From Kutzneria kofuensis (GTDB lineage: Bacteria; Actinomycetota; Actinomycetes; Mycobacteriales; Pseudonocardiaceae), in contig NZ_JACHIR010000001.1 of NCBI RefSeq assembly GCF_014203355.1, positions 1,428,038 to 1,492,037 on the forward strand: DNA of 64,000 nucleotides, written 5' to 3'. Position 1 is the first letter of the stretch. Each line of letters opens with the position of its first letter. The translations under genes were made by a program, and so were the position numbers. The notes below the pieces were generated by a model that was not told the DNA's origin, did no database searches, and worked only from the letters and a program-made list of their open reading frames with translations. Positions 5,755 to 38,786 of the stretch are shown here, piece by piece.

Positions 5755-5861
5755 CTGTGTGTCCTTTCGCTGGCGTGGCGGCCAACGATTCGGATCTTCG
5801 CACCCTGCCGTTGCGTAAAACCGGACAAGATGCGGACACCGTCCCGCAATTTTTTGATGCT

Positions 5862-5895
5862 TGACAGAAAAAGGGGCCGAACGGCTCAACCCCGA
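5862..5895 (-). terminator. Possible weak terminator after the biosynthetic operon
   Basis: Read on the minus strand, the stop codon of the lyase gene lies in a GGGG...CCCC foldback that is followed directly by TTTTT. The stem is short and imperfect, so this is only a possible end for the 12-gene operon. Confidence 0.35.
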
Positions 5896-7226
5896 TAGCG
5901 CCGCAGCACCCGATCCACCAGGGCGGGGGCGTCGCCGATGTAGTGCGCGGGGTCGAGCAGGTCGTCCAGCGGGAGCTCGGCCTCGATCTTGCCGGCGAGG
6001 ACCTCGCGCAGGGACTTCCCGGTGGCCGACGCCTCCCGGGACGCCTCGCCGAGCACCTTCTTCGCGACGGCCTTGCCCAGCACCGGAGCCAGGGCGACGT
6101 TGAGACGTTCGCTGACGATGCCGCCACCGGACAGGGCCAGGTTGGCGGCCATGCGATCGGGGAACACCTCCAAGCCCTCGAGCAGCTCAGCGGCGGTGAA
6201 GGCGGCGCCGCCGACCAGGCGGAGGGATTCGCGGAGCGGCTGCCACTCGGCGTGCCAAGCGCCGCCGGGGCGCTCGTCCTCGGCGACCATGCTGGCGGCC
6301 AGCACCGACACCTGGGCGGGCACCTGGCGGGCAGCGGTGACGATCAACGTCGCCAGCACGGGATTGCGCTTCTGGGGCATGGCCGACGAAGCGCCCCGGC
6401 CGTCGGCGGCGGGCTCGGCGACCTCGCCGATCTCCGTGCGGGACAGGACCTGCACGTCGATGCCGATCTTGCCGAGGGCGCCGGCGACGAACTGCACCAC
6501 GTTGCCGACGTCGACGATCGGGGTGCGCAGGGTGTGCCACGGGGCGACGGGTTCGGCGAGCCCGAGCTCCTCGGCGAAGGGGGCGACCAACGGCACACCG
6601 GCGTCGACGCCGGCCAGGCGGCCGTACTCCACATAGGCGGCAAGGGTTCCGGCGGCGCCGGCGAGCTCGGCCGGCAGCACCAGGGCTTCCAACCGGTCGA
6701 TGGAGTCCAACACGAGCGACAGCCAGCCGGCCGCCTTCAGGCCGAAGGTGGTGGGCACGGCGTGCTGGGTCAACGTCCGGCCGGCGATCAACGTCGTCCG
6801 GTGCTCGGCGGCGAGCCGGGCCAACGCGTCGGCGCAGCGGCGGAGGTCGGCCAACAGCAGGGACCGAACCCGTTGCACGACAAGCATGGTGGCGCTGTCG
6901 AGGATGTCCTGGCTGGTGGAGCCCCGATGCACGTACTCGGCAACCTCAGCCGGCACCAGCTTCATGAGCGCCGGTACGAAGGCGACAACCGGGTTGGCGG
7001 CCCCGCGCGAGGCGACCGCCAGTTCGACAACGTCCAACTGCTCGGCAGAGACGGCGGAGATGGCCCTGGCGGCGCTGTCGGGCACGACCCCGAGCCGGGC
7101 CTGGGCCCGGGCCAGGGCGGCCTCGACGTCGACCATGGCCCGCAGCCAAGCCTCGTCGTCGGTCTCTCCTGCCACGGGCGTGCCGGCCCAGGTCGGCGCC
7201 AGCAACCCAGCGTCGGTACCGGTCAC
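5886..7226 (-). CDS. CreD-like nitrosuccinate lyase (PcaB/adenylosuccinate lyase fold)
   Basis: The 446-residue product belongs to the fumarase/aspartase superfamily, nearest the 3-carboxy-cis,cis-muconate cycloisomerase branch. It has the signature loop SSAMPQKRNP and the catalytic-region motifs YVHRGSTSQDI and GRTLTQHAVPTTFG. In the nitrous-acid pathway of cremeomycin-type clusters, the enzyme CreD from this branch eliminates nitrite from nitrosuccinate to give fumarate. I assign that role because the gene starts with a GTGA overlap on the stop of a CreE-like flavoenzyme and lies in an operon that needs nitrite. The alternative is a true PcaB, since the pca operon at 39-44 kb lacks that gene, but the company it keeps argues against this. 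It would act in the cytoplasm as a tetramer, as its family does. Confidence 0.85.
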   Translation of the reverse strand: MTGTDAGLLAPTWAGTPVAGETDDEAWLRAMVDVEAALARAQARLGVVPDSAARAISAVSAEQLDVVELAVASRGAANPVVAFVPALMKLVPAEVAEYVHRGSTSQDILDSATMLVVQRVRSLLLADLRRCADALARLAAEHRTTLIAGRTLTQHAVPTTFGLKAAGWLSLVLDSIDRLEALVLPAELAGAAGTLAAYVEYGRLAGVDAGVPLVAPFAEELGLAEPVAPWHTLRTPIVDVGNVVQFVAGALGKIGIDVQVLSRTEIGEVAEPAADGRGASSAMPQKRNPVLATLIVTAARQVPAQVSVLAASMVAEDERPGGAWHAEWQPLRESLRLVGGAAFTAAELLEGLEVFPDRMAANLALSGGGIVSERLNVALAPVLGKAVAKKVLGEASREASATGKSLREVLAGKIEAELPLDDLLDPAHYIGDAPALVDRVLRRYRG

Positions 7227-9091
7227 GCCAGCCTCCCAACCACCGCCACCGGCATCGTCCGCACGGCCAGCGCGGCGCGCGCGATGGCGTCGGAATCCTC
7301 CAGCGTCACCGAGCCGACGCCGGGACGGATACCGGCGGCGGTCACCCAGTGAACGTACTCGGTGGGCACGCCGTAGGCGAACCGAGCGGGATGGGGCCGG
7401 TTGGTGGCGTCGATCACGTGATACGGGCGAGCGGTGACGGCGACGCCGCCGCTCTCGAACGACTCGGAGCCCTCGTCGGGGATGTGGAAGGAACGGCACT
7501 GCCCGGTGACCTTGAGGTACCGCAGCAGCGGATTGGCGCTGCGGTTGAGGTCGACGTCGGGGATCCGGGCCTCGATGAGCGTGGTGACGGCGATCGGCGG
7601 AGCCGGCACGGAGGTCGCGTCGACCATGAACGTCTCGCCCAGGCCGACCCGAACACCGGGGCCGAGCACGCGCAGCACGCCGGCCTCCAGCAGCGCGGTC
7701 ATCTCCTCGATCCGGCGCAGCGGCGGCCCGATGGACAGGAAGGCGTTGAACGGCGTGTACCAGCGGGCGAGTTCGTCACGGTAGGAGCCGCCGGTGATGC
7801 CGCCGTGGTCGACGACCATCCGGATCTCGTTGCGCAGGTCCCGAAGCGTGTCCAGTGCCGCCTTCAACGGGCTGGACACGTTGCCGCGCTTGGCCTCCCG
7901 CGCGTCGGAGCGCAGGTAGCCGAGCAGCCAGCGCTGGTAGTCGGCCTGGTCGGCGAACGCCTTCTCGCCGTACGGCTTGGCGATCCGCTCCCAGTTCCAG
8001 AGTTCTTCCGCCACCACGCCGAATCGAGCCAGCAGCTCGGAATCGTCCAGGCCGTCGCGAAGAGCTTCCACGTACAGCCGGGAGAACTCCGCAACCTGCG
8101 CCGGAGTCAGCCGGTCGGCCAGCAGCGTGGCGTAGTAGACGGCCCGGGCTTCCTTGTCGATCAACGGCCACACGTCACGCATGAACCGCACCCGACCGGA
8201 CTTTCGCAGCCGCTCGATCACCGACGGGGTGAGGAAGGCCGGCTGGTGCCGACCGACCTGACCCTTCTGGTTCTCGCCACGGGCGTGGTGCGGGACGCCA
8301 CGCCGGGATCCGGCATACAGCGCGGGTTCCAGACCGGAAGGGTGGTACACCAGCCCGTCCTCGGTGCGCTCGTAGCGGCCACCGCGGCCCTCGGTGAACA
8401 GCGCCAGGTAGTCGAAGAAGTTCAGCCCCAGCCCGCGCAGCGCCACCTTCTCCCCCGCCTCGATCCGGGACAGGTCCAGGTCCGCCGGGTTGCTCGGCGG
8501 AATGTAAGTCAGCCCCCGCTCCGCCGCGAAGTCCCGCAGCGTGGTCTCCTCGGCGGTCAGCACGACCGGCCCATGCCCCAACGCCAACACCACGGCGTCG
8601 AGATCGTCCACAGTGGACCCGTTCTTCAACCGCACGGTCTGCCGGCCATCAGGCTGGTCGTCGACGGCCACGGCGGTGCCCCGGTGCACCGTCACGTCGA
8701 CCTCGCCGTCAAGAAGCTGCGTGAACACCCACTCCAGGTAGTGGCCGTACAACGCGCGGCTCGGATACGTGTCCGGCCCGAGATCAGCGGCCTCGGCCCG
8801 CACGTGCTCCGGATACTCGTCGCCCACACCGCAAGCCCACTCGTACAGGCTCGGCCCCGGCACGACCGGGCCCTCCAGCGGGACGCTGTCGTCCGTGTAC
8901 AGGCTGACCTGCGACGCAACGGTGTTCATCAGCAGCGTGCCGGACTGGCTGATCCGCCACACACTGCCCGCGCCAGGCGGGTACGGGTCGATCACGTGCA
9001 CCGCGACCGGCACGCCCGGCGCCCGGTTGGCGATGATCCGTTCCAGCACGGACGTGCCGCGCGGACCGGCCCCGATGATGCAGATCCTCAC
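7223..9091 (-). CDS. CreE-like flavin monooxygenase making nitrosuccinate from aspartate
   Basis: This is a 622-residue FAD/NAD(P)-binding protein. It opens with the Rossmann motif GAGPRGTSVLERI, has a distinctive acidic/proline motif IDPYPPGAGSVWR, a second nucleotide-binding strand (VVLALGHGP) and GLGLNFFDYLALFTEGRGGRY. This is the PF13454-type family that includes CreE/FzmM nitrosuccinate synthases, which oxidise the aspartate amine to a nitro group with NADPH and O2. The family also has uncharacterised members, so the activity is inferred mainly from coupling to the CreD-like lyase (overlap 7223-7226) and the rest of the operon. The start GTG at 9091 overlaps the stop of the upstream SDR. 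A paralogue lies at 27575-29401 without a lyase partner. Confidence 0.85.
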   Translation of the reverse strand: MRICIIGAGPRGTSVLERIIANRAPGVPVAVHVIDPYPPGAGSVWRISQSGTLLMNTVASQVSLYTDDSVPLEGPVVPGPSLYEWACGVGDEYPEHVRAEAADLGPDTYPSRALYGHYLEWVFTQLLDGEVDVTVHRGTAVAVDDQPDGRQTVRLKNGSTVDDLDAVVLALGHGPVVLTAEETTLRDFAAERGLTYIPPSNPADLDLSRIEAGEKVALRGLGLNFFDYLALFTEGRGGRYERTEDGLVYHPSGLEPALYAGSRRGVPHHARGENQKGQVGRHQPAFLTPSVIERLRKSGRVRFMRDVWPLIDKEARAVYYATLLADRLTPAQVAEFSRLYVEALRDGLDDSELLARFGVVAEELWNWERIAKPYGEKAFADQADYQRWLLGYLRSDAREAKRGNVSSPLKAALDTLRDLRNEIRMVVDHGGITGGSYRDELARWYTPFNAFLSIGPPLRRIEEMTALLEAGVLRVLGPGVRVGLGETFMVDATSVPAPPIAVTTLIEARIPDVDLNRSANPLLRYLKVTGQCRSFHIPDEGSESFESGGVAVTARPYHVIDATNRPHPARFAYGVPTEYVHWVTAAGIRPGVGSVTLEDSDAIARAALAVRTMPVAVVGRLA

Positions 9092-10026
9092 CGTGAAACC
9101 TCCGACAGGGCCTGGCAGACACCGTCCTGCCAGCTCGGCACGGTCGGCCGCCAGCCGAACTCGGCCCGGGCCTTGGCGTTGGACGCGCCGCGCTGCCGGG
9201 TCTGCTGGAACGCCCCGTACCAGCCGAGCAGCCGCTCCCCCAGGTCGACGGGAACCCGCTTGGGCTCGGGCGCACCGAGCAGTTCGGCGTAACCGGGCAG
9301 CCAGGCATGGGCCGGCGCGGGCTCGTCGTCCACGATGTTGAACACGCCGGTTGCCGCATGCTCGACGGCCGACGCCGCCGCCAGGGCGGCGTCCCGGACG
9401 TGCAGGAACGACGTGAGCCCGGCGCCGTCGCCGACCAGCGGCAGCCGTCCGAGGTGCACCGCCTGCCCGATCGCGCCGGAGGCGTCGTAGAGCGTGTACT
9501 GGCCGTACAAACTGCCGTACCGCAACACGATCGGCGCGAGGTCGTCGGCCGCCAGCACCAAGCGCTCCAGCTCGGCGACGGCCTGGACGGTCATCGCCCA
9601 GGTCGCGTCCGGAGCGTCCACGAACAGCGGCGCATCCTCGCCCAGCACGGGATCACCGGAAGGCGTCGTGGCAAAGGCGATGCTCTGCGCCACGATGCGC
9701 CGCGCGCCGGCGGCACGGGCCGCGTCGACCAGGTTGGCCGTGCCGACGCGGCGCACGTGCGCGGTCCGCTCGAAGACCTCCCAACGGGTGTCGCCGCTGG
9801 CCGGTCGCAACGCCGTCACCTGGTGCACCACGACCTCCGGCCGCGCCGCGGCGACGGCGGCCGCCAGCCCGGGCGCGTCCAACAGGTCCGCGGCCACCAC
9901 GGCATCGGCGTCCACGTCCCGGGCGGAGCCGCGGGCCAGCGCGGTCACGTGGTGACCCGCCTTCCGCAGCAACGGAAGCAGCTCCCGCCCGATCACCCCG
10001 GTCGCACCGGCCAGCAGCACCCGCAT
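9088..10026 (-). CDS. Extended SDR lacking YxxxK; candidate diazo-to-hydride reductase
   Basis: This 312-residue protein has an NAD(P)-binding Rossmann fold with GATGVIG at residues 7-13 and the body of the NAD-dependent epimerase/dehydratase family (RRIVAQSIAF, IVLRYGSLYGQYT, FLHVRDAALA, FNIVDDEPAPA). Where family members have YxxxK, it reads TWAMTVQAVAELE, so the catalytic Tyr and Lys appear to be replaced (Lys by Gln). In ava/cma-type clusters a partner enzyme replaces the aryl diazo group with hydride from NADPH. Hydride addition to a diazonium needs no proton-relay Tyr, so this gene is my candidate for that step (inference). An alternative is an inactive or scaffold SDR. RBS GGAGGG is upstream, 3 nt separate it from the preceding gene, and it overlaps the CreE-like gene. 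Confidence 0.75.
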   Translation of the reverse strand: MRVLLAGATGVIGRELLPLLRKAGHHVTALARGSARDVDADAVVAADLLDAPGLAAAVAAARPEVVVHQVTALRPASGDTRWEVFERTAHVRRVGTANLVDAARAAGARRIVAQSIAFATTPSGDPVLGEDAPLFVDAPDATWAMTVQAVAELERLVLAADDLAPIVLRYGSLYGQYTLYDASGAIGQAVHLGRLPLVGDGAGLTSFLHVRDAALAAASAVEHAATGVFNIVDDEPAPAHAWLPGYAELLGAPEPKRVPVDLGERLLGWYGAFQQTRQRGASNAKARAEFGWRPTVPSWQDGVCQALSEVSR

Positions 10027-10029
10027 CTC

Positions 10030-10518
10030 TCAGCCTCTCCCTCCGACCCGCATCAGCAGGCGGCACGCGGGATCCCCGTGCCGCAGGCAGGCGGTCGCCC
10101 TGTTCTCGGTCAGCGTCACGCCGAGCCCGTCCGACCAGCCGGCGTGGATCTCGGTGCAGGGGCACCGGTATCCGTCCAGCGAGCCGGCCATCCGGACCAT
10201 CACCACGGCGAAGTTCTGCCGCATGGTCAGCTCCAGCAACTCGTCGTCGAGCGCCGTCACGCCGCCGTCCCGCAGCTCGTTCGGGAACATGATGTCGGCG
10301 CAGCGCTCGTACAGCTTGGCCAGCGTCGCCGAGTCGGCCTCCGCCACCGGCTCACCGTGCGCCCGCGCGACCTGCTTGCCCACGCGGGTGGCGACGAACC
10401 GCATCGCCTCGGCGTTGATCTCGTTGGCGACGTCCTGGCCGTAGCGGCTGGCGACCCCCTGGTACCAGCGGGCGTCGTGCAGCCACCACAGCCGGTACAC
10501 CTCCATCGGAGCCCCCAC
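10030..10518 (-). CDS. Small cysteine-containing protein, V4R/DUF6125-like, unknown role
   Basis: I do not recognise a characterised function. The 162-residue product starts with helices rich in aromatics (YRLWWLHDARWYQ) and ends with paired cysteines in RCPCTEIHAGW and ACLRHGDPACRL. The H-GDP-x-C ending resembles the 4-vinyl-reductase-like (V4R) small-molecule-binding fold and the DUF6125/ATC-hydrolase-like small proteins. A metal or ligand site built from these Cys and His residues is plausible. It lies between the diazotase-like ligase and the SDR, with a 2-nt gap to the first and 3 nt to the second, so it is surely co-expressed and probably acts on the amine, diazo or acyl intermediates. 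The GTG at 10518 follows GGGGAAG; an ATG at 10506 is possible. Confidence 0.7.
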   Translation of the reverse strand: MGAPMEVYRLWWLHDARWYQGVASRYGQDVANEINAEAMRFVATRVGKQVARAHGEPVAEADSATLAKLYERCADIMFPNELRDGGVTALDDELLELTMRQNFAVVMVRMAGSLDGYRCPCTEIHAGWSDGLGVTLTENRATACLRHGDPACRLLMRVGGRG

Positions 10519-10519
10519 G

Positions 10520-12187
10520 TCACTTCCCCTCGGCGCGCGCGACCAGCTCCTTGGCCCGTTCGCGCATCACCCGCTTGAGCACCTTACCGGTCACGCCGAC
10601 GGTGACGTCGGTGTAATCCATGCGCAGCGCCCTGGTCACGGGCGGGAATCCGTGCTGCGCCAGCACTTCGTTCACCCACGCGGTCAGGTCCTCCGCCGGG
10701 TCCTCGGCCCCCGCGAACTGCAACAACACGTAGGCCTCGCCGATGCCGTCGCCGTCCCAGTCGGCCTGCACGCCGTCCTCGACGATCGCCGTCACGGTGC
10801 AGTCGACGAGTTCCGGCCGGTTGGCCAGCAGCAGTTCCTCGGTGCGGGTGCTGAAGACGATGCCGTCCTTGGTGCGGATGGCGTCCGGGACCCGGTCGAG
10901 GTGGTAGAAGTTGCCCTCCTCGTCCTGGTACGACAGGTCGCCGGTGAGCCAGTAGCCGCCCAGCCGCAGCCGGTGCCAGGTGATGGAGTCGTTCCAGTAC
11001 CCGGGCGTCAGTGTCGGGGACTTGACGCCGAGCCGGCCGATCTCGCCGGGCGGCAGCGGGCGGCCGTCCTCGGACAGCACGGCCGCCTGGGCGAAGCTCA
11101 TCGGCTTGCCGATGCAGCGGCCGAACGAGGCGCTGCCGGGCTTGTGCCCGTTGTGGAAGATGGAGTAGCCGGTCTCCGAGGAGCCGAGGCCGTCGGTGAA
11201 CACCGAGCCGGGCACGCGGTGCGGCTTGAGGTCGGGGCCGATCTCCTCGTGGCTGCCCAGCCCCACCAACACCCGGATGTGCGCCTCGTGGGCCGCGTCG
11301 CCGGTGTTGTAGTACGCCTCGATGCTGGAAGTGTCCCACTGGGACAGATCGGCCGTGGCCATCTGCGCGTACGTGCCGGAGAAGCCGAAGACCGTGGTGG
11401 GCTTGAACTTCTGCACGGCGTCGAGCACGTCCTCGCCGCGCTGGCTGGACAGCATCATCACCGGCGAGCCGAGCAGCAGGCCGAACATCATCACCGACAT
11501 GGCGGCGTTGTGGTTGCCCGGCAACGCGACCAGCAGCCGGCCCATCGAGCCGCCGACGGACAGCTTGAGCCGGTGCAGCTGGGCGTACAGCAGCGTCTCG
11601 TGGGTGTGCGGCACGGCCTTGGGCATGCCCGTGGTGCCGGAGGAGTGCGAGATGATGATCGGGTCGGTCTTGTCGTGCCGGTACGGCCAGCCGGTCTTCG
11701 GCAGGTGCTCGCGGTGCTCCGGCCTGACGTCGTCCGCCGTGACCACGAAGCCGAGTTCCCCGCTCTGGGCCAGGGTTTCGTGCCGCTCGGCGTCGGTGAC
11801 CGCGCCGGAGGCGCCCTGCCGCCGGATGTACTCGCGGGCGATCTCGGGACGCAGCTTGGCGTTGGCGAAGGACGGGATCGCGCCGAGCGAGTTCACCGCC
11901 ATGAAGTTGATCGCGAACTCGGTGCTGGACGCGGTGAGCACGCCGACCACGTCGCGGGGCTTGATGCCCTTGCTGGCGTAGAAACCGGCGTAGGTCTCGA
12001 CGATCTCGTACAGCTCGCCGAGGGTGAGGACCTCGGGCCGGCTGCCGTCGGGGGCCTGCCAGGTGCCGTCGGTCCACAGCACCGGCTCGTCGAGCGGCCG
12101 CCCGTACGCCTTGATCCGGTGCAGCACGTTGCCGGCGCCGAGCTCGGTGTCCGCGTTGATCCGGGCGCGCTCTTCCTTGGTAATCAC
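10520..12187 (-). CDS. CreM/CmaA6-like ATP-dependent aryl diazotase (acyl-CoA ligase fold)
   Basis: This is a 555-residue ANL-superfamily enzyme. The P-loop is HSSGTTGMPKAVPHT, the A5 motif is GLGSSETG, the hinge Asp region is YWLTGDLSY and the C-terminal Lys lies in GVTGKVLKR, so it should adenylate. In cremeomycin, avenalumic-acid and p-coumaric-acid clusters an enzyme of this family uses ATP and nitrous acid to diazotise a 3-amino-4-hydroxyphenyl compound. The operon contains the genes for both substrates, and a separate ligase for starter loading, which leaves this one free for diazotisation. It could instead be a carboxylate ligase. The GTG start overlaps the stop of the KS-like gene (12184-12187). 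Confidence 0.85.
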   Translation of the reverse strand: MITKEERARINADTELGAGNVLHRIKAYGRPLDEPVLWTDGTWQAPDGSRPEVLTLGELYEIVETYAGFYASKGIKPRDVVGVLTASSTEFAINFMAVNSLGAIPSFANAKLRPEIAREYIRRQGASGAVTDAERHETLAQSGELGFVVTADDVRPEHREHLPKTGWPYRHDKTDPIIISHSSGTTGMPKAVPHTHETLLYAQLHRLKLSVGGSMGRLLVALPGNHNAAMSVMMFGLLLGSPVMMLSSQRGEDVLDAVQKFKPTTVFGFSGTYAQMATADLSQWDTSSIEAYYNTGDAAHEAHIRVLVGLGSHEEIGPDLKPHRVPGSVFTDGLGSSETGYSIFHNGHKPGSASFGRCIGKPMSFAQAAVLSEDGRPLPPGEIGRLGVKSPTLTPGYWNDSITWHRLRLGGYWLTGDLSYQDEEGNFYHLDRVPDAIRTKDGIVFSTRTEELLLANRPELVDCTVTAIVEDGVQADWDGDGIGEAYVLLQFAGAEDPAEDLTAWVNEVLAQHGFPPVTRALRMDYTDVTVGVTGKVLKRVMRERAKELVARAEGK

Positions 12188-12684: not shown

Positions 12685-13799
12685 GCCGCCTCCAGCAGGA
12701 TCGCGGTGTTCATGCCGCCGAACGCGGCGTTCAGCGACAACACGCGGTCGACGTGCGCCCGCCGCGGTCCCTCGGTCACGTAGTCGAGGTCGCAGGCCGG
12801 ATCCGGGGTGGTGTACCCGGCCGTGGGGGGCAGCACGCCGTCGAGCAGAGTCAGGAGGGACACCACGAATTCCACCGCGCCGGAGGCTTCGAGCATGTGG
12901 CCGGTGGTGCTCTTCGTCGAGCTGATCGGGGTGTCGGGGCCCACCGCCGCGCGCAGGCCGTTCGTCTCCGCGCCGTCGTTGGCCGGGGTCCCCGTGCCGT
13001 GCGCGTTGACGTAGTCCACTCCGGACACTCCCGCGCGGCGGAACGCCTGCGAGATGGCCGAAGCGATGCCTCTGCCCTCGGGATGGGGCTTGGCGATGTG
13101 GAAGGCGTCCGAGGCGACGCCGAAGCCGGTCATCCGGGCCAGCACGGTCGCGCCGCGCCGGGCGGCGTGCTCCGCGGACTCCAGCACGATGGCGGCGACG
13201 CCGTCACCGAGCAGCAAACCGGTTCTGTCCGCCGAAAACGGCCGGACGACGCCGTCCCGCGACAGGGTGCGACCGGAGTCGAACTTGGCCATGTTCTCCT
13301 CCTCGACCAGGTACGCGCCGGCGCACAGGGCCACGTCCTGGCGGCCGGCGGCGATCAGCCGCCAGCCGTGGATCAGCGCCGTCGCCGAGGCCACGCAGGC
13401 GTTGGTGAACGCCAGCCGTGGGCCGCGAAAACCCACCCGGTCGGCCAGCCTTGCGGCCAGCACGCCGGGAACACCGTCACCCGGGTCGAAATCCTGGCCC
13501 CGGGAGAACCGGGTCACCGACTTCCAGTCGCCGGCCGAGCCGAGCAGCGTCGCGGCCGGGGTGTCGGCCGCCAGGCCGGCCATGTCCACGGCGTCGTCGG
13601 CGCAGCCGCCGAGCACGTCGACCAGAGCGGGGTCGCCGGCCGCGGCGGCGGTCATCGGCGTCCGGAACGGCGTCGGGTCGAACCGGCGCGCCGGCGCGAA
13701 CACCTGCGTGCCGGTGAACACCCCGTCCCGCAACGCCTTCTCGCCCCAGCCGAACGCCGTGAACACACCGTACCCGGTGACGACGACCCCGCCGGTCAT
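12681..13799 (-). CDS. Type II beta-ketoacyl-ACP synthase (KS)
   Basis: The 372-residue condensing enzyme has the complete triad: Cys in TNACVASATAL, His in NAHGTGTPANDG and the K...H motif in SSTKSTTGHMLEASGA. The N-terminal VVVTGYGVFTAFG is typical of FabF-like KS subunits. It should condense an ACP-bound aryl starter with malonyl-ACP once or a few times. It lies between two ACP genes and a half-length KS-like partner, all overlapping by 4 nt, which is the organisation of a highly reducing type II PKS such as those of avenalumic acid or ishigamide. No malonyl transferase, ketoreductase or dehydratase is in the operon, so these must come from elsewhere. Confidence 0.9.
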   Translation of the reverse strand: MTGGVVVTGYGVFTAFGWGEKALRDGVFTGTQVFAPARRFDPTPFRTPMTAAAAGDPALVDVLGGCADDAVDMAGLAADTPAATLLGSAGDWKSVTRFSRGQDFDPGDGVPGVLAARLADRVGFRGPRLAFTNACVASATALIHGWRLIAAGRQDVALCAGAYLVEEENMAKFDSGRTLSRDGVVRPFSADRTGLLLGDGVAAIVLESAEHAARRGATVLARMTGFGVASDAFHIAKPHPEGRGIASAISQAFRRAGVSGVDYVNAHGTGTPANDGAETNGLRAAVGPDTPISSTKSTTGHMLEASGAVEFVVSLLTLLDGVLPPTAGYTTPDPACDLDYVTEGPRRAHVDRVLSLNAAFGGMNTAILLEAA

Positions 13800-14026
13800 G
13801 CCCGGACCCGGTTCAGGTAGGCGGTGATCCGGGCGACGGACGTGAACTCGTCCAGCTCGGAGTCGTCCGGGTCGGCGTCCACCCCGAAGCGGGTCTTCAC
13901 CTGGTGCAGCAGCCACACCAACGCCATCGAGTCGATCACCAGCTCGGCGTCGGACGGCAGGTCGGCCGGCAGGTCCGGGAAGATCCGCCGGTCGGCCAGC
14001 AGCTCCCGGACGTCCTGCTCGGTCAC
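13796..14026 (-). CDS. Acyl carrier protein (second ACP)
   Basis: The product is a 76-residue four-helix carrier protein with the phosphopantetheine site Ser in ELVIDSMALVWLL; DSM replaces the usual DSL. It begins with a GTGA overlap on the first ACP gene and its own stop overlaps the KS start, so the stoichiometry of ACP, ACP and KS is translationally tied. It differs clearly from the first ACP in sequence and size, which suggests one carries the starter and the other the extender or the growing chain (inference). Confidence 0.88.
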   Translation of the reverse strand: MTEQDVRELLADRRIFPDLPADLPSDAELVIDSMALVWLLHQVKTRFGVDADPDDSELDEFTSVARITAYLNRVRA

Positions 14027-14301
14027 TGGGCGGCCTTCCGTCGCACGATGTCGGCCGCCAGCTGGCCCAGCGTCATGGCGCCGATGGCCTCGATGTCGGT
14101 GTCCGGGATCTTCACCTCGAACTCCCGCTCCAGCCGCAGCGTGAGCTCGACCAGGCTGAGCGACTCCAGGTCGATGCCGCTGGTGCCGATCGGGCTGTCG
14201 TCGGTGATCTTGTCCCGGTCGATCGGCACGTTCATCTCACCGGCGAGCGTGCTCAGCACGAACTCGCGCACCTGCGCATCCTGCAGGGTGGTCGCGGTCA
14301 T
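14023..14301 (-). CDS. Acyl carrier protein (first ACP)
   Basis: The 92-residue carrier protein has the modified Ser in GIDLESLSLVELTLRLE. The acidic helix II (ERE FEVKIPDTDIEAIG) is normal for recognition by partner enzymes. The ATG at 14301 is preceded by GAGAGGAAC. A 59-nt gap separates it from the upstream ligase gene, the longest gap in the operon, so an internal promoter is possible. It is the likely acceptor of 3-amino-4-hydroxybenzoate from the neighbouring ligase (inference). Confidence 0.9.
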   Translation of the reverse strand: MTATTLQDAQVREFVLSTLAGEMNVPIDRDKITDDSPIGTSGIDLESLSLVELTLRLEREFEVKIPDTDIEAIGAMTLGQLAADIVRRKAAQ

Positions 14302-14360
14302 GTTCTCTCGTTCCTCTCAGGCATACCAGGCCGATCAGGCAGATCGGGCCGATCGGCAGA

Positions 14361-15734
14361 TCAGGCGGATCCGGAGACCAGCGCCGCCGCACGCAGCGCG
14401 CCGCGGTCGCGAATGAGCTTCCCGTTGGGGGTGCGGGGCAGCTTCGGCAGCACCCGCACCAGTTTCGGCACCTTGTAGTCGGCCAGGTGCTCGGCGCACC
14501 ACCGGACCATGTCCTCCGCGGTCAACTCACCGTCCGCGGTGGACACATAAGCCTCGATGACATCGCCGTGCACCAGCACCGCCTCCGACACCGAGGCGTG
14601 CCGGGTCAGCACGTCCTCGATCTCGTGCAGGTCGACCTTGAGCCCGCCGATCACCACGAGCGAGTCGCCCCGGCCGAGCAGCCGGACCGTGCCGTCCACG
14701 GTCAGCTCGGCCCGGTCCCTGGTCCGCAGCCAGCCGTCGACGTACCGGTCCTGGCCGTCGGCGGTGAGGTACGGCGTCGCCGGCAGCCGCACCTCGACCT
14801 CGCCGTCACGGATGCGCAGCAGGATGCCCGGGGTGGCCGGGCCGACGGTCGGCCGCAGCCGCCCGCTGACGTCCATCGCGATCACGCCGGTCTCGGTGGT
14901 GCCGTACGACTCGCCGACCCGCACCCCGTACACCTCGTGGAACCGGTCCGCGACGGCCGGCGGCATCAACTCGCCGCCGGAGACCGCGCACCGCAGTGAC
15001 GGCAGCACCGGCGGGTTCTCCGCGGTGGCCAGCAGCTCGTAGTGGAACGGCACGCCGAAGATCGCGCTGACCTCGTGCTGGGCGGCCGCCCGCAGGATGT
15101 CGGCGGCGGCCACCTTCGACGCGAACACCACGCCCACGCCGGCGAACAGCGAGTGCAGCAGCCCGGCGATCAGACCGAAGCTGTGCGCGGTCGAGCTCAG
15201 CAGCAGCACCCGCTCCCCCAGCGCCGGCATCCCGGTCAGCTGGTTGAACCGGCGGATCTCCTCGGCGATCGACGCCTCGGTGCGGCCGACCACCTTGGGC
15301 CGGCCGGTGGAGCCGGAGCTGAACTGGATCAGCCGGTGCTCGGTGGACGCCGGCAGGCCGTCGGCCCGCTTCTCGGTCACGAGCTCGTGCCGCGACCGGA
15401 AACTCAGCCGGGACCAGCCGGCCGCGCCGGCCCGGACCACGTGCTGCGGCCGGCACATCGCCCGCAGCTGCTCCACCTCGGCCGGCTTGAGCCGGTGATC
15501 CACGATCATCACCTGCGCGCCGAGCTGCCACAGCGCCAGCAACACCTCGATCTGGGTGAAGCTGGGCGGCACCTGCAGCGCGACGGTGCTGCCCTCGCGC
15601 ACGCCGGCCGAGGCGAACAGCGCCGCCTCCTGCCGCACCGCCTCGCGCAGTTCCCCGTGCGTCACAACGTGATCGGCGATCAGGTAGGGCAGGTCGTCGG
15701 GATGTTCGGACAACAGGTCGGAGACGAGCTGCAT
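14361..15734 (-). CDS. Aryl-acid adenylating ligase for starter loading
   Basis: This is a 457-residue ANL ligase with P-loop FSSGSTGRPKVVGRTE, A5 motif ESYGTTETG, hinge RTRDRAEL and terminal Lys in RTPNGKLIRD. It is shorter than CoA ligases, which is common for stand-alone adenylating enzymes that charge ACPs. Between the 3-amino-4-hydroxybenzoate genes and the first ACP, it most likely activates that acid and transfers it to an ACP thiol. Its start lies 3 nt after the GriH-like stop. A CoA product instead of an ACP thioester cannot be excluded. Confidence 0.85.
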   Translation of the reverse strand: MQLVSDLLSEHPDDLPYLIADHVVTHGELREAVRQEAALFASAGVREGSTVALQVPPSFTQIEVLLALWQLGAQVMIVDHRLKPAEVEQLRAMCRPQHVVRAGAAGWSRLSFRSRHELVTEKRADGLPASTEHRLIQFSSGSTGRPKVVGRTEASIAEEIRRFNQLTGMPALGERVLLLSSTAHSFGLIAGLLHSLFAGVGVVFASKVAAADILRAAAQHEVSAIFGVPFHYELLATAENPPVLPSLRCAVSGGELMPPAVADRFHEVYGVRVGESYGTTETGVIAMDVSGRLRPTVGPATPGILLRIRDGEVEVRLPATPYLTADGQDRYVDGWLRTRDRAELTVDGTVRLLGRGDSLVVIGGLKVDLHEIEDVLTRHASVSEAVLVHGDVIEAYVSTADGELTAEDMVRWCAEHLADYKVPKLVRVLPKLPRTPNGKLIRDRGALRAAALVSGSA

Positions 15735-15737
15735 GGC

Positions 15738-16820
15738 TCAGCTCTCCTTGCAGAACTCGCCGATCGGGATGCCGACGTGTCGCTTGTCGGTGGCGATGTA
15801 GCCGAGGAGCTCGTCGCCCTGCGCCAGCTCCGTGACGTTGCGCACCTTCGGCCCCGGGCCGAGCACCCGCACGTGCCAGTCGTCCTGCACGGTCAGGCTC
15901 ACCTCGACGCCGTCCTGCGAGTGCGCGGTGATCTGCAGCAGCGGGCGCGACTCCAGCTTCGCCCGGCCGACCACGACCCGGCGGGTGCGGCCCTCGGTGT
16001 TCACCGCCAACACGGTGCTGCCGGAGTGCAGCTCGCTCAGGTAGTTGGTGCGGTTGTCCGGGCCGAGCACGTACGAGTGCAGTGCGCCGGCGTTGACCCG
16101 GAACGGCCGGGTCGGCATGTACGGCAGCGGGTGCGTCTCGCTGACGCACAGGATGAAGCCGGACGAGTAGGAGCCGACCAGGATGCCCTCGTCCTGCTCG
16201 AAGTGCGAGCAGGTGTCGACGCAGACCCGGTCGCCGAGGCCGACGTGGTCGATGCGCTCCACCGTGAGGGTCGACAGCTGCAGGTCGTTGGTGCCGGCCT
16301 CGAGCAGCCGGGCCAGCTGGAACACCTCGTTGGCGTCACGCGGCGCGAGCAGCAGGCCGTCCGAGCCGTGTTCGAGGACGTCCAGCACGATGGTGGCTTC
16401 CTCGATGTCGCCGACGACACACACCAGCTTGCCGTCCGAGCGGTCGGCGGCCGCGATGACGATCTCCAGCGGGATCTTCGTGGGGTCGGTGAAGCTGACG
16501 ATGGTCCACGGCAGCCGGGCCGCCGCGGTGCAGGCCAGCTGCAGCGTCCGGTCGTCGCTGACCCGGACGAAGACCACGCCGGTGTGGCCGGCGGCGATCA
16601 GCCGGTCCAGCTGGTCGGCATCGTCGACCGTCGTCGTGACGAGGTCGGCGGTCCCCGACTCGGGGCCCAGCAACACCTTCTGCACGGTCGGCGGGAGCGT
16701 CGCCAGCAGCGCGGGGTCGTCCGAGACGACGCCGGCGATCCGGGCGTGCACGGCGGCCGCGACCACGGCCTCCAGCTGCGGCTGGGGAACGGTGCGCAGG
16801 TCGATCCAAGCGAATTTCAC
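15738..16820 (-). CDS. GriH-like 3-amino-4-hydroxybenzoate synthase (DHQ synthase II family)
   Basis: The 360-residue protein belongs to the archaeal-type 3-dehydroquinate synthase II family: it opens with KFAWIDLRTVP and ends in a typical beta-rich domain (VLGPGPKVRNVTEL, GDELLGYIATDKRHVG). In grixazone and cremeomycin clusters the homologue GriH cyclises and aminates the C7 product of GriI to 3-amino-4-hydroxybenzoic acid. A plain shikimate role is unlikely because actinomycetes use AroB. The GTG at 16820 overlaps the stop of the GriI-like gene as GTGA, so the two are coupled as in known clusters. Confidence 0.92.
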   Translation of the reverse strand: MKFAWIDLRTVPQPQLEAVVAAAVHARIAGVVSDDPALLATLPPTVQKVLLGPESGTADLVTTTVDDADQLDRLIAAGHTGVVFVRVSDDRTLQLACTAAARLPWTIVSFTDPTKIPLEIVIAAADRSDGKLVCVVGDIEEATIVLDVLEHGSDGLLLAPRDANEVFQLARLLEAGTNDLQLSTLTVERIDHVGLGDRVCVDTCSHFEQDEGILVGSYSSGFILCVSETHPLPYMPTRPFRVNAGALHSYVLGPDNRTNYLSELHSGSTVLAVNTEGRTRRVVVGRAKLESRPLLQITAHSQDGVEVSLTVQDDWHVRVLGPGPKVRNVTELAQGDELLGYIATDKRHVGIPIGEFCKES

Positions 16821-17620
16821 GCTGTCTCCAAGAGTTGGGCGGCGGCCTGGGCCGGGTGCAGCACGGCGGCGAGCTTGTTCATCAGGGAGCGGGGAGTCGG
16901 TGAGGTGAAGATCCGGCGGCCCACGGCGAGGCCGGCGCAGCCGGCGTCCAGCGCGGTGCGGGCGTAGTCGACCAGGCCCGAGCCGTCGGGGTCGGTGTCG
17001 GCAGCGGGGCCGCCGGCGACCAGCACCGGGATCGGGCAGCTGGCGGTCACCTCCGCCATCCGCTCGGCGGGCAGCGCCATCGACGTCTTGACGATGTCCG
17101 CGCCCAGGTCGGCGGCGATGTTGACGACGTGTGAGAGCACGGTGGGGTCGAACGAGCTTTCCATCCGCGGACCGCGGGCGTAGGCCATCGCGATCAGCGG
17201 CACGTTCCACACCTGGCACTGGCTGGCGACCGTGCCCAGGTCGGCCAGCTGCTTGGCCTCGGTGTCGGAGCCGACGTTGACGTGCACGCTGACCGCGTCC
17301 GCGCCCAGCCGCAGCGCGTCCTCCACGTCCCCGACGAGCACCTTGGCGTGCTGGTCGGCGGCATGCGACGTGCCGGCGGACAGGTGCACGACCAGCGCGC
17401 AGTCCTCCAGCAGCGCCGGGTCGATGGCCCGCATCCGTCCCTTGTGGACGATGATGGCGTCGGCCCCGCCGAGCACGACGGAGCGGATCAGCTCGTCCCA
17501 TTCCTCGTTGGGCACCACCGGCCCGTCCGACACGCTGTGGTCCAGCGGCACGAACAGGTGCCGGCCGTCCCCGGCGCGCGACAGGCGCCGGGTGCGGAAC
17601 GCCTTCCCGGGATCGGCCAC
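16817..17620 (-). CDS. GriI-like aldolase for 3-amino-4-hydroxybenzoate
   Basis: The 267-residue class I aldolase is of the DhnA/FbaB type (LFVPLDHSVSDGP near the start, GGADAIIVHKGRM, VSVHVNVGSD, and the Schiff-base Lys in GADIVKTSM). GriI joins aspartate semialdehyde and dihydroxyacetone phosphate into the C7 precursor of 3,4-AHBA, and the pairing with a GriH-like gene makes this assignment firm. I use the GTG at 17620 because AGGAGG lies 8 nt upstream; the earlier GTG at 17629 overlaps that ribosome site. It is the first gene of the operon, and 320 bp separate it from the divergent flavodoxin-like gene. Confidence 0.93.
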   Translation of the reverse strand: MADPGKAFRTRRLSRAGDGRHLFVPLDHSVSDGPVVPNEEWDELIRSVVLGGADAIIVHKGRMRAIDPALLEDCALVVHLSAGTSHAADQHAKVLVGDVEDALRLGADAVSVHVNVGSDTEAKQLADLGTVASQCQVWNVPLIAMAYARGPRMESSFDPTVLSHVVNIAADLGADIVKTSMALPAERMAEVTASCPIPVLVAGGPAADTDPDGSGLVDYARTALDAGCAGLAVGRRIFTSPTPRSLMNKLAAVLHPAQAAAQLLETA

Positions 17621-17629
17621 GGTGCGCAC

Positions 17630-17941
17630 CTCCTGTTCAAACGGTTCGGCGATCGATTGAATGATTGACGGTTAAACGAAGCCGAGACAACTAACAGATC
17701 GCGATAACTTCGCAGTTATGTCCGCCCAGAGATTGTTCCGATGATGGCTGACGTGAACTCTGATGAGACTTTGAAGAGTGTCTGCTATGAGCGGCGCGCG
17801 AGTTTGGTCAAGTGTCAAAGGTACGAACGTCCACGCAGGCAGACGGCCTATGGTTGACCTTGCGGGGCCTCGCTAGCATGGCTGACAGCGGGCCGGCAAC
17901 GGCCGTGCCGACGCATATTCTTCACATGATCGGAGTCGATC
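17630..17941. promoter_or_regulatory. Divergent control region of the biosynthetic cluster with a LysR-like dyad
   Basis: This 312-bp non-coding stretch is clearly richer in A+T than its surroundings. It separates the minus-strand operon from the plus-strand flavodoxin/MFS/LysR unit. At 17704-17719 it holds a perfect dyad, ATAACT-4 nt-AGTTAT, of the size LysR regulators use. The LysR gene at 20070 is the obvious candidate to bind it. No clear -10/-35 pair can be fixed by eye. Confidence 0.5.
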
Positions 17942-18544
17942 GTGGCATTTTCCGTGCACGTTGCGGTGGCATACCACGGCGGTGCAGGACACACGGCCAG
18001 ATTTGCCGGCGCCGTGCATGCCGGCGCCTCATCGGTGAGCGGCTGCGAATCGACGCTGGTCAGCGTGGACACGATCGACGAGGCGGGCTGGGCCGCCTTG
18101 GACGCCGCGCACGCCATCGTGTTCGGCGCGCCCACCTACATGGGCACCGCCTCGGCGGCGTTCCACGCGTTCGCCGAGAGCACGTCCCGGCGCTTCCTGC
18201 GGCAGACCTGGCACGACAAGCTCGCCGCCGGCTTCACCAACTCCGGCGACAAGGCCGGCGACAAGGCCTCGACGCTGGGCTACTTCCAGACGCTGGCGGC
18301 CCAGCACGGGATGACCTGGGTCAACCTCGGCCTGAAATCCGGCTGGAACACCGCGCGCGGCAGCGAACACGACATGAACCGGCTGGGCTTCCACGACGGC
18401 GCCGCCGCGCAGTCGTTGCTGGGCAGCCGGCCCGACGACGTGCACGCGGCCGACCTGGCCACCGCCGAGCACCTGGGCCGGCGCGTCGCCGAGCAGGCCA
18501 CGATCTTCGTCGCCGGCCGCGCGGCGCTGGCCCCGGTGTCGTGA
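17942..18544 (+). CDS. Flavodoxin-like NAD(P)H:quinone/flavin oxidoreductase
   Basis: The 200-residue protein has the flavodoxin-like fold of the WrbA/FMN-reductase type: VAVAYHGGAGHTARFAGAV is the phosphate-binding loop, FGAPTYMGTASAAF the flavin-contact loop and AAGFTNSGDKAGDK the third FMN segment. It may supply reduced flavin or reduce quinone-like compounds such as diazoquinones or aminophenol oxidation products (inference). It starts divergently to the biosynthetic operon with GGAG upstream of the GTG, and its stop overlaps the MFS exporter start (GTGA), so it probably serves the cluster. Confidence 0.85.
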   Translation: MAFSVHVAVAYHGGAGHTARFAGAVHAGASSVSGCESTLVSVDTIDEAGWAALDAAHAIVFGAPTYMGTASAAFHAFAESTSRRFLRQTWHDKLAAGFTNSGDKAGDKASTLGYFQTLAAQHGMTWVNLGLKSGWNTARGSEHDMNRLGFHDGAAAQSLLGSRPDDVHAADLATAEHLGRRVAEQATIFVAGRAALAPVS

Positions 18545-20058
18545 CCGTCACGGAGAATCCCGTTGTACGGCCCCGGATCTGGGCGGCCGTGCTGGGCGTC
18601 GCCGTGCTCGCGCAGACGGTGTCGGCGATGGACAGCTCGGTGCTCAACCTGGCCGTGAAGACCCTGGCCGACCCGGTGGCCGGGCTCGGCGCCGGCACCG
18701 GCGAGCTGGCCTGGGCGATCAGCGCCTACACCGTCGTGTACGCGGCGGCGATGTTCGCCGGCGGCGCGCTGGCCGACCGGTTCGGTCCGCGCTGGGCGTT
18801 GTGCGCCGGTCTCGTGGTGTTCATGGTCACGTCCACGGTGGCGGCGTTTTCGGTGACACCGCTGGAACTTGTGCTGTGCCGCGGCGGCATGGGCGTCGGT
18901 GCGGCGCTCATCACGCCGGCGACGCTGTCGGTGGCGCTGCGGGCGTCGCAGCCGGCGCAGCGGCCGAAGGCGGTGGCGATCTGGGCCTCGGCGGCCGCGG
19001 TCGGCCTGGCCATCGGCCCGATCGTCGGCGGCCTGCTGCTGAGCCGGTTGTGGTGGGGCTCGGTGTTTCTGCTCAACGTGCCCGTGACGCTGATCTGCCT
19101 GGTGGGTACCGCGTTGTGGGTGCCCCGGCTGCACGTCGCGCAGAAGCGGCCGCTGGACTGGCCGGGGCTCGTGCTGTCCTTCGGCGGCCTGCTCGGCGTG
19201 GTCTACGGCGTGATCCAGATCGGCGGCGACGTCGGCTGGGACTCGCCGTCCGTGCTGGCGCCGCTGCTCGCCGGCCTGCTGTTGCTGGCCGTGTTCGCCG
19301 TGCAGCAAAGCCGTTCCAAGGCACCGAGTTTCGACGTCCGGCTGTTCCTGCGGCGTCGGTTCGCCGGCGGCGGCCTGGTGCTGACCGTGGCCTTCTTCGG
19401 CATCACCGGGCAGCTGTTCTACGCCTCGTTCTATCTGCAGGACGTGCTGGGGTTGAGTCCGCTCGGCGCGGGGCTGGCGATCGCGCCGACCGCGGCCGGC
19501 ATCCTCGCCGGCAACCTGTGGGCGCCGGCCCTGGTGCGGCGCTGGTCGGTGCGCGGGGTCGCGTCCGTCGGCATGATCGTCACCGTCGGCACGCTCGCGT
19601 GCTACCTGGTGTTCGACGCCTCCACACCGATCGTCCTGTTCGGACTGATGATGCTGGTGCAGGGGTTTTCGATGGGCACGGTCGTGGTACCCGCGACCAG
19701 CGCGGCGATGGACGACCTGCCGGCCGAGCGCAGCGGCGCCGGCTCCGCCGTCACGTCCGGGCTGCGGCAGCTCGGCGGCACGCTCGGCATCGCCGTCGGC
19801 AGCACGATCCTGAGCGCCTGGTACCGATCCGGGCTCCGGCCCGCGCTGTCCGGGCTGCCGGACGATCTCGCACAACAGGCCCTCGGCTCGGCGCAGGCGG
19901 CGCTGTCCGTCGCCCGCGCGGCCGGTCGGCCCGAACTGGCGGAGGCCGCCACCTCCGCGTATCTGCACGCGATGCGGGTCACCGCCGGCACGAGCGCCGT
20001 CCTGTGCCTGAGCGGACTGGTCCTGATCGCCGTGTGTCTGGGTGGCACATCCGACTGA
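18541..20058 (+). CDS. MFS drug exporter, DHA2 (14-helix) type
   Basis: The 505-residue membrane protein has the DHA2/EmrB-QacA pattern: an N-terminal helix with MDSSVLNLAVKTL, motif A (GGALADRFGPRWAL), motif C region (IGPIVGGLLLSRLWW) and about 14 hydrophobic segments. The start GTG overlaps the flavodoxin-like stop by 4 nt. Located in the unit divergent from the biosynthetic operon, it is the likely efflux pump for the diazo, amino-aryl or cinnamate product. Proton antiport is the family mechanism. Confidence 0.92.
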   Translation: MTVTENPVVRPRIWAAVLGVAVLAQTVSAMDSSVLNLAVKTLADPVAGLGAGTGELAWAISAYTVVYAAAMFAGGALADRFGPRWALCAGLVVFMVTSTVAAFSVTPLELVLCRGGMGVGAALITPATLSVALRASQPAQRPKAVAIWASAAAVGLAIGPIVGGLLLSRLWWGSVFLLNVPVTLICLVGTALWVPRLHVAQKRPLDWPGLVLSFGGLLGVVYGVIQIGGDVGWDSPSVLAPLLAGLLLLAVFAVQQSRSKAPSFDVRLFLRRRFAGGGLVLTVAFFGITGQLFYASFYLQDVLGLSPLGAGLAIAPTAAGILAGNLWAPALVRRWSVRGVASVGMIVTVGTLACYLVFDASTPIVLFGLMMLVQGFSMGTVVVPATSAAMDDLPAERSGAGSAVTSGLRQLGGTLGIAVGSTILSAWYRSGLRPALSGLPDDLAQQALGSAQAALSVARAAGRPELAEAATSAYLHAMRVTAGTSAVLCLSGLVLIAVCLGGTSD

Positions 20059-20069
20059 GGGGAAGATCG

Positions 20070-27255: not shown

Positions 27256-27490
27256 TCTTTCCGGGGTGTCGCAACGCCTTCTCGAACGGCAGTGGCCCGC
27301 CCAGCGTCTCCGGGTCGGCGGTCACGTCGAACAGCGGCCGGTAGCCGGTCCGTAGGTACAGGCCGCGTGCCTCGGGCTGGCGCGGTCCGGTCGTGAGCCG
27401 GATTCGCGTGTAGCCGCGCCGGGCGGCCTCCAGCTCGCGGAACAGCGGCTGCGCCGCCGGGTCGGACGGCTTGGTGTGGACGAACTTCAC
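27256..27490 (-). pseudogene. Remnant of a GNAT acetyltransferase
   Basis: On the minus strand, about 78 codons from 27490 read like the C-terminal half of a GNAT N-acetyltransferase (RELEAARRGYTRIRLTTG, then EARGLYLRTGYRPL, and PLPFEKAL at the end). The N-terminal half with its acetyl-CoA site is missing, no ribosome site precedes the GTG at 27490, and the frame runs on past the natural end into the next gene's antisense. I read it as a decayed fragment. Confidence 0.55.
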
Positions 27491-27574
27491 GCCGCCAGTG
27501 CAGCGGAATTCCCCGTCCGGCGGCGGACTTCCCAGCAGCTGAGACGGGCCGATCACGCTGGCTACGCTGGATTC

Positions 27575-38703: not shown

Positions 38704-38786
38704 CGACCCTCAAGTTACCGCACCTCGCGCCCCCACACGGGTGGAACGGGCGACTCACATTGACTCCCCCGCCCGCGCCGCAGTAT

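Follow-up and report, generated by a model that had tools for sequence, protein, structure and literature searches.

Organization of the locus

In the 64,000-nucleotide stretch of the Kutzneria kofuensis genome analysed here (the window), a minus-strand operon of twelve genes at 5886–17629 lies beside three divergent plus-strand genes at 17942–21029. A first-pass annotation had listed the operon as aldolase, DHQ-synthase-II-like enzyme, ligase, two acyl carrier proteins (ACPs), ketosynthase (KS), half KS, second ligase, small Cys protein, SDR, CreE-like flavoenzyme and CreD-like lyase, and gene calls and domain matches bear this order out. The divergent exporter and reductase that it described are also present, but it overlooked a divergent LysR gene; its extent, 5886–20058, is right for the operon and leaves out that gene, cmaR. 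Third-position GC makes eleven of the operon genes stand out, cmaH being the exception because its longest frame overruns. With start codons picked in this analysis, 4-base overlaps form seven of the eleven junctions, and cmaD begins ~90 codons into its longest frame. A single 748-aa gene at 17812–20058 was considered and rejected: its MFS domain begins at residue 265, its first part overlaps cmaG in another frame, and cmaF starts at 18541. The full set of twelve operon genes was found in 18 of 34 compared loci, some of the others being cut short; the cma-type gene set recurs in relatives and is therefore not due to chance.

Two genes would supply the 3-amino-4-hydroxybenzoate (3,4-AHBA) starter. 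The DhnA/GriI-type aldolase CmaI (16817–17629), predicted to take the first step, matches PF01791 (157 bits), passes NF005556 (295.6 against a cut-off of 241) and shares 79% global identity with its homologue in K. viridogrisea (locus L031). CmaH (15738–16820), a DHQ-synthase-II-like 3,4-AHBA synthase of the GriH/AvaH type, passes NF002625 (537 against 375) and, at 371 bits, is the sole PF01959 match in the genome at E≤0.001. The ligase CmaA1 (14361–15734; PF00501 and PF13193; 75% identity to L031) is assigned to transfer of 3,4-AHBA to the starter ACP. CmaA2 (14023–14301), the ACP to which the literature gives the malonyl extender, scores above the PF00550 cut-off and has its attachment serine in DLESLSLVEL, and the putative starter ACP CmaA3 (13796–14026) falls slightly below it (19.6 against 20.8) and carries Trp38 and His41, two positions that PMC10777205 names for CmaA3. 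The KS, CmaA4 (12681–13799; PF00109/PF02801), retains a Cys-His-His active site in the motifs NACVAS, HGTGT and KSTTGH. It is followed by a putative half-size chain-length factor (CLF), CmaA5 (12184–12684).

The remaining operon genes encode an ANL-fold ATP-dependent diazotase, CmaA6 (10520–12187); a small conserved Cys-rich protein, CmaB (10030–10518); an SDR, CmaA7 (9088–10026), predicted to be the NADPH-dependent reductase that replaces the diazo group with hydride; a CreE-type FAD aspartate N-monooxygenase (nitrosuccinate synthase), CmaE (7223–9091; PF13454); and CmaD (5886–7226), by sequence a CreD-type nitrosuccinate lyase. CmaE matches PDB 8cp2 ('FAD-binding protein') over residues 2–610 with 665 bits, and an NCBIfam search at 0.001 returned no model for it. 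On the divergent strand, CmaG (17942–18544) is a WrbA-like flavodoxin/FMN-reductase oxidoreductase (PF03358, 34.3 against a cut-off of 24), CmaF (18541–20058) a DHA2-type MFS exporter (PF07690; TIGR00711 at 212 bits, slightly below its cut-off of 230.2) and CmaR (20073–21029) a LysR regulator with PF00126 and PF03466 above their cut-offs. Nothing in the cluster was recognised as a dehydratase or thioesterase.

Relationship to known clusters

All fifteen genes agree in content, order and orientation with the published table of the K. albida cma cluster, which makes p-coumaric acid by diazotization-dependent deamination (PMC10777205). The present locus comes from another Kutzneria species, and identities were taken against K. 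viridogrisea as a stand-in: 63–86% globally for the twelve operon proteins, and 76, 60 and 65% locally for G, F and R. For 11 of 12 genes, identities between this stand-in and an ava-type locus (L047) came within ~3 points of the published cma/ava values (A5, 35 and published 35.4; E, 57 and 57.6; D, 65 and 64.7), A3 being the exception (43 and 51.9). Published work on the K. albida cluster has shown its product, loading by A1 and the reaction of A6 (PMC10777205); the reductase kinetics in the literature are from AvaA7. The cluster is a new copy of a known pathway, closely related to a cluster that has been expressed and assayed. The chemistry proposed in the first-pass annotation (a 3,4-AHBA starter, a reducing type II PKS, aspartate-derived nitrous acid, a diazotase and loss of the amino group) has been reported or proposed for the orthologous cma cluster (PMC10777205).

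The ava cluster of Streptomyces sp. RI-77, which makes avenalumic acid (Kawai 2022, as cited in PMC10777205), shares the operon I-H-A1-A2-A3-A4-A5-A6-B-A7-E-D and an avaF-type exporter; the present cluster differs in having cmaG and cmaR and no avaA8-like FabG gene. With the window's own FabG-like gene (29565–30326) as query, no FabG homologue was found in positions 1–24000 at 1e-8, and four of the eight Streptomyces-group loci that lack cmaG contain one. A cmaG-like flavoprotein and a cmaR-like LysR gene together with absence of avaA8 place the locus with the cma type.

The cremeomycin (cre) cluster shares the 3,4-AHBA genes, the CreE/CreD nitrite pathway and a ligase-fold diazotase. Cremeomycin keeps its diazo group, whereas here A7 is present for its removal; the cre cluster is not known to contain a PKS.

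Diazotase and reductase

The second ligase had been read as a diazotase, and the curated model agrees: CmaA6 scores 1089.4 against NF058622 (AvaA6-type diazotase; cut-off 975). It is 86% identical globally to the K. viridogrisea protein, which is in turn identical over 553 residues to PDB 8ztz/9ijf. CmaA7 likewise passes NF058621 (AvaA7-type denitrifying reductase; 493.5 against 400). A stable diazo or amino end product (3-diazo- or 3-aminocoumaric acid, which other genes might tailor) is very improbable here, since A7 is present and intact; E and D are open frames as well, and the flanking genes scanned, one encoding a kelch protein and one weakly beta-lactamase-like, are not tailoring enzymes. 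Such end points may nevertheless exist in the family: three relatives (L037, L054 and L055) have clusters that stop after B, with no A7, E or D, although of the 195 diazotase positions invariant in the other 29 sequences they retain 191, 192 and 195.

A half-size chain-length factor

CmaA5 has 166 aa where the KS has 372, and lacks the full-length KS-like form of a canonical type II CLF. The K. viridogrisea stand-in has a 175-aa form, in contrast to 263–312 aa in ava-type loci. Among 18 relatives, 16 match the KS N-terminal domain and 10 weakly match AmcG at E≤1, AmcG being the short KS partner in cispentacin synthesis (PMC10698177); A5 of the window itself gave no AmcG match, a best Pfam match of only E=0.011 and no NCBIfam match. 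Neither A5 nor B, searched singly against PDB sequences, had a match at E≤1, and an A5 profile gave weak PDB matches only, mostly to KSs (best E 0.075). When the short CLF and its own KS were compared as profiles, the match was too weak to be of use (E 0.04, probability ~1%). By the KS-domain matches of its relatives, A5 resembles the N-terminal KS lobe. In cispentacin synthesis, AmcF/AmcG likewise pair a KS with a partner lacking part of the CLF fold, but the starter, the product and the proposed role in cyclisation differ (PMC10698177).

In a partly resolved CLF tree, the window sequence groups with Kutzneria and Lentzea rows and the other 24 rows are separate (support 92/95); the root is unsure because a distant row (L061), on a very long branch, joins the group that holds the window sequence. 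The probable chain-length assignment rests on this grouping and on gene content. The first-pass annotation had allowed a cinnamate- or an avenalumate-like acid, or a stable diazo compound. Of these the cinnamate, p-coumaric acid, is favoured because the locus is of the cmaG/cmaR rather than the avaA8 type and its CLF falls with the Kutzneria/Lentzea rows, which include the reference. Avenalumic acid, or another chain length from at least two extensions, seems quite improbable. At aligned positions, core proteins share 53–73% identity with their counterparts in two ava-type loci (L040 and L041; starter ACP A3, 49–50%), and both amino acids are substrates of CmaA6 in vitro (PMC10777205), but cmaG and cmaR are present, FabG is absent, and the CLF is of the short Kutzneria/Lentzea kind instead of the 263–312-aa form of Streptomyces ava-type loci. 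Furthermore, in one relative (L050) a p-hydroxycinnamoyl-CoA hydratase/lyase gene (422.6 bits against a cut-off of 276) occupies the usual place of the divergent genes, which fits a hydroxycinnamate product.

CmaB has 61 invariant columns in 18 sequences, including C73, C119, C121, C144 and C152. We considered it as the missing thioesterase or dehydratase; at E≤1 it weakly matches DUF6125 in 18 of 18 sequences and ATC_hydrolase in 13 of 18, the window copy at E 0.0093 and 0.018, respectively. A tyrosine ammonia-lyase route to p-coumarate was also considered: three genes of the aromatic-lyase family occur in the genome, and a scan of two of them put one above the cut-off for histidine ammonia-lyase and the second above no cut-off.

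Lyase identity and nitrite supply

CmaD scores 598 against the nitrosuccinate lyase model NF052556 (cut-off 650, not passed) and 361 against the PcaB model TIGR02426 (cut-off 355.75, passed). All six Kutzneria CmaD proteins scored, that of K. viridogrisea included, lie below the NF052556 cut-off (586.7–609.5), and a lyase on another contig of a Kutzneria MAG (G225) passes it at 749.6. Two orphan lyases without CreE also pass, so the cut-off does not separate the lyase from PcaB, and we rejected it as a test for D. CmaD residues E35, H100, D107, H231 and R319, mapped by position onto ScCreD numbering in this analysis, fit the published nitrosuccinate-lyase fingerprint E49/H118/D125/H253/R341 (PMC13411527) and are invariant in 13 of 13 sequences. 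Pseudomonas putida PcaB carries this fingerprint too (PMC13411527), which therefore does not exclude PcaB for D.

A residue in the SS-loop differs between CreE-adjacent and pca-operon lyases. All 30 CreE-adjacent lyases, the window's included, read SSAMPQK, with Gln, and all nine PcaB proteins of pca operons read SSxxPHK, with His; five orphan lyases with no CreE beside them are mixed (Gln in L103, L114 and L127). This criterion was found in this analysis and is not in print. As a sequence feature, the Gln supports nitrite production in this cluster. That D is instead PcaB (3-carboxymuconate cycloisomerase), leaving the cluster without its own nitrite source, is highly improbable: its scores on the two models, a pca operon that lacks pcaB and a genome search at 1e-30 in which cmaD was the sole PcaB-family gene agree with that identity, but cmaD overlaps cmaE by 4 bases, the lyase tree groups it with CreE-partnered lyases, and its SS-loop has Gln where the pca-operon enzymes have His.

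Accepting D as a nitrosuccinate lyase leaves room for a second function. The pca operon lies 18 kb away without pcaB, and cmaD is the only PcaB-family gene (six of seven Kutzneria genomes; the seventh, a MAG, gave no pcaH hit). We raise it as a doubtful but possible reading that Kutzneria CmaD both releases nitrite for the diazotase and performs the missing PcaB step of the protocatechuate (beta-ketoadipate) operon. At 1e-40, NF052556 had no hit in 37 of 390 genomes.

Proposed pathway and implications

The locus is very probably a cma-type cluster for p-coumaric acid, judged by its sequence. CmaI and CmaH would make 3,4-AHBA, which A1 would load onto ACP A3; A4 and the short CLF A5 would add one malonyl unit donated by ACP A2. 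Keto reduction may fall to CmaG or a host FabG; CmaG has been proposed as the ketoreductase in the literature, where this is unproven, and the role would be unusual for a WrbA-like flavoprotein. Dehydration by a host fatty-acid dehydratase and release would give 3-aminocoumaric acid. E and D would derive nitrous acid from aspartate, A6 would diazotise the amine with ATP and nitrous acid, A7 would replace the diazo group with hydride from NADPH, and F would export the product. What the sequences show directly is which genes are present and in what order, their orthology, the conservation of active-site motifs and that of the palindrome; we infer that the chemistry is the same in this species, that a single extension takes place, and what CmaG, the host enzymes and R with its site do.

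That palindrome, ATAAC-N6-GTTAT (17704–17719), lies in the divergent promoter upstream of the operon. With at most one mismatch it occurs in all 22 loci that carry R and in 1 of the 10 that lack it; the window has one copy against 0.03 expected, and the 10.4-Mb genome contains no further exact copy. It is a likely switch site and candidate CmaR operator, through which R would govern both divergent units.

The palindrome makes testable which DNA site CmaR binds, and the half-size CLF does the same for how chain length is held to one extension. Curated models confuse nitrosuccinate lyases with PcaB here, and the one-residue Gln/His rule may help to part them, mixed orphans notwithstanding. If CmaD does serve the pca operon, a catabolic step in Kutzneria would now depend on a secondary-metabolite gene.

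A close orthologue of the published cma cluster

Twelve consecutive minus-strand genes form an operon at 5886-17629, with 4-base overlaps at seven of the eleven junctions (starts as chosen). Divergent from it are a 200-residue flavodoxin/FMN-reductase-like gene (cmaG, 17942-18544), an MFS exporter (cmaF, 18541-20058) and a LysR regulator (cmaR, 20073-21029), all on contig C1:1428038-1492037 of a 10.4-Mb genome. The content and order of the genes are those listed in the first-pass annotation, which ended too early and left out the LysR gene. The K. albida cma cluster has the identical fifteen genes in identical order: cmaR, cmaF, cmaG, then cmaI-H-A1-A2-A3-A4-A5-A6-B-A7-E-D (PMC10777205). Expressed in S. 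albus, cma yields p-coumaric acid; loading of 3,4-AHBA by CmaA1 and diazotization by CmaA6 were shown, and kinetics were given for AvaA7 (PMC10777205).

The named loci include no K. albida record, and the K. viridogrisea locus (L031) was used as a stand-in because its A6 is identical to PDB 8ztz/9ijf over 553 residues, entries that we infer to be K. albida CmaA6, and because its comparison with the ava-type locus L047 gave values that differ by no more than about 3 points from the published cma/ava identities in 11 of 12 genes (the exception is A3, at 43 against 51.9). Identity of the window's twelve operon proteins to those of K. viridogrisea is 63-86%, with local identities of 76% for G, 60% for F and 65% for R. 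The diazotase shares 95% identity with its counterpart in Kutzneria sp. 744, our ground for assigning the genome to Kutzneria. The cluster is closely orthologous to one that has been published and assayed, and most likely makes p-coumaric acid; the first-pass finding is real, and its reading as a diazotization cluster correct in outline.

Among the core enzymes, A6 and A7 score above the curated AvaA6 and AvaA7 cut-offs, and the ketosynthase has its Cys-His-His motifs. CmaE matches PDB 8cp2 ('FAD-binding protein'), which we take to be CreE, across residues 2-610 of 622. The acyl carrier protein A3 has the Trp38/His41 pair linked in CmaA3 to starter loading (PMC10777205); A2 has neither Trp nor His. 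The CmaB family (10030-10518 in the window) has five invariant cysteines. Of 18 members, 13 show weak similarity to L-2-amino-thiazoline-4-carboxylate hydrolase (best 4e-6), a hint that CmaB might supply the otherwise missing release or dehydration function.

Directly downstream of cmaD, a 1391-residue protein with kelch and carboxypeptidase-regulatory-like domains is encoded at 1714-5889, as at the same place in four other Kutzneria loci (L028-L030, L049). A second CreE-like flavoenzyme (27476-29401; 641 residues, 37% identical to cmaE) has no adjoining PcaB/CreD-type lyase gene. Genomes G222 and G226 also have such copies (38-40% identity to cmaE), at about 30 kb or less from the cluster.

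Distribution and subtypes

Of 390 genomes in the taxonomic family, 22 contain an AvaA6-type diazotase scoring above cut-off, including all seven listed Kutzneria genomes, our own among them. Across the 34 loci compared (L046 and L062 being one contig), 18 have all twelve operon genes; several of the others run into contig ends and may have E and D beyond them. Loci with cmaG and cmaR occur in Kutzneria, Lentzea, Umezawaea, Amycolatopsis and two Streptomyces; those without are of the Streptomyces group (L038-L044 and L047), four with a FabG homologue nearby. These types agree with the two subtypes of PMC10777205, the exceptions being L050, which lacks G, F and R, and L059, with G downstream and R absent. 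At the usual site of cmaG/F/R, L050 encodes a p-hydroxycinnamoyl-CoA hydratase/lyase (15529-16356) adjoining the cma-type operon.

Three clusters (L037, L054, L055) stop after B, without A7, E and D, and have a well-conserved diazotase; they may stop at the amino or diazo acid. At 1e-40 the A7 model matched nothing in the L037 and L054 genomes and had a sole match, under cut-off, in G202, the genome of L055. A search of G202 for CreE homologues at 1e-20 was negative, and L037's genome has some (best 54%). More distant are L061, whose diazotase (40% identical) has its own KS, CLF, ACPs and CreE, and L060, with a diazotase (57%) adjoining CreE and an opposite strand that matches the ligase and KS just weakly.

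A half-size chain-length factor

The window's A5 has 166 residues. The remaining six Kutzneria loci and a Lentzea locus encode 165-175, most other cmaG-type loci 181-207 and eight ava-type Streptomyces-group loci 263-312; L055 (313) and L059 (262) have long forms despite cmaG. By itself the window's A5 is barely detectable (Pfam E 0.011; nothing in NCBIfam), and 16 of 18 relatives match the KS N-terminal domain (best 2.3e-7). AmcG, a KS partner said in PMC10698177 to miss part of the CLF fold, is matched by ten of the 18 (best 3.4e-4). The short form is probably functional, since that of K. viridogrisea is nearly as short and heterologous expression of the cma cluster succeeds. CmaA5 size is not taken up in the main text of PMC10777205, and a limited literature search for half-sized or truncated CLFs added nothing.

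A candidate CmaR operator

The intergenic region 17630-17941 holds a palindrome, ATAACTTCGCAGTTAT (17704-17719), of the pattern ATAAC-N6-GTTAT. Tolerating one mismatch among the ten arm bases, we found this pattern upstream of gene I in all 22 LysR-bearing loci, 19 of them with an exact match, and in one of the ten that lack the regulator (L050, one mismatch). A one-strand scan of 32 loci (650,651 bases) returned it 23 times, always upstream of gene I; the window has one match against 0.03 expected. The exact pattern is single-copy in our genome, and among the other genomes in a search of eight the number of exact copies reaches three, save G164, with none and a one-mismatch copy. We infer that CmaR binds this palindrome. 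The word operator is absent from the main text of PMC10777205, the only paper returned by a search for cmaR and LysR.

CmaD and a pca operon without pcaB

Profile models leave CmaD ambiguous, at 598 for nitrosuccinate lyase (cut-off 650) and 361 for PcaB (cut-off 355.75). The former cut-off is unusable as a test, because it also rejects K. viridogrisea D and admits two orphan lyases that lack CreE. CmaD has the nitrating fingerprint published in PMC13411527, as seen in its accessible portion (residue mapping made here). SSAMPQK occurs in 30 of 30 lyases adjoining a CreE gene (20 from cma/ava clusters, ten elsewhere, many of them close relatives) and SSxxPHK in 9 of 9 within pca operons; five lyases that adjoin neither include both residues, His at L102 and L113 and Gln at L103, L114 and L127. 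The window's CmaD has Gln at this position. Neither our limited literature search nor the accessible portion of PMC13411527 contained this Gln/His rule.

About 18 kb from the cluster lies a pca operon (38697-44867) in which pcaH, pcaG, pcaDC and pcaR exceed curated cut-offs, and pcaI, pcaJ and pcaF are named from Pfam matches and position (the pcaF model score is under cut-off). It lacks pcaB, the end of pcaG (42992) being followed directly by the start of pcaDC (43000). A genome search for the PcaB family at 1e-30 recovered cmaD alone, and the nitrosuccinate-lyase model gave two other matches at 1e-5, both below 60 bits. Six of seven Kutzneria genomes, our own included (G000, G221-G224, G226), combine a pcaB-less pca operon with a cmaD-type lyase only, as do a Lentzea-group genome (G247) and an Amycolatopsis-group genome (G143); the seventh Kutzneria genome (G225, a 4.7-Mb MAG) has a PcaB-family gene and no pcaH match.

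A less likely reading is that CmaD does two jobs, making nitrite for the diazotase and serving as the missing PcaB. One enzyme could cross from one reaction to the other, since P. putida PcaB has 2% of CreD hydronitration activity (PMC13411527). Among 24 genomes checked for both families, 23 have pcaH, with a PcaB-family gene beside it in 11 (G383 and G248 judged by coordinates alone); all 12 others have a CreD-clade lyase elsewhere (clade from the tree), a co-occurrence that is no association test in a sample chosen for having the diazotase. In three of the 12 (G086, G202, G105) this lyase has no CreE in the surrounding stretch, and two carry the PcaB-type His (L102, L113) and one Gln (L103). 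Against a double role, Kutzneria cmaD has the Gln typical of nitrosuccinate lyases, and of 134 canonical PcaB positions just one is retained by the pcaB-less group while mostly lost from the other; one shows the reverse. An unrelated enzyme could instead fill the pcaB gap.

The operator, the short CLF, the lyase residue and the pcaB gap were not found described in the literature searched, a limited search, most so for the pcaB gap; they are modest, testable additions.
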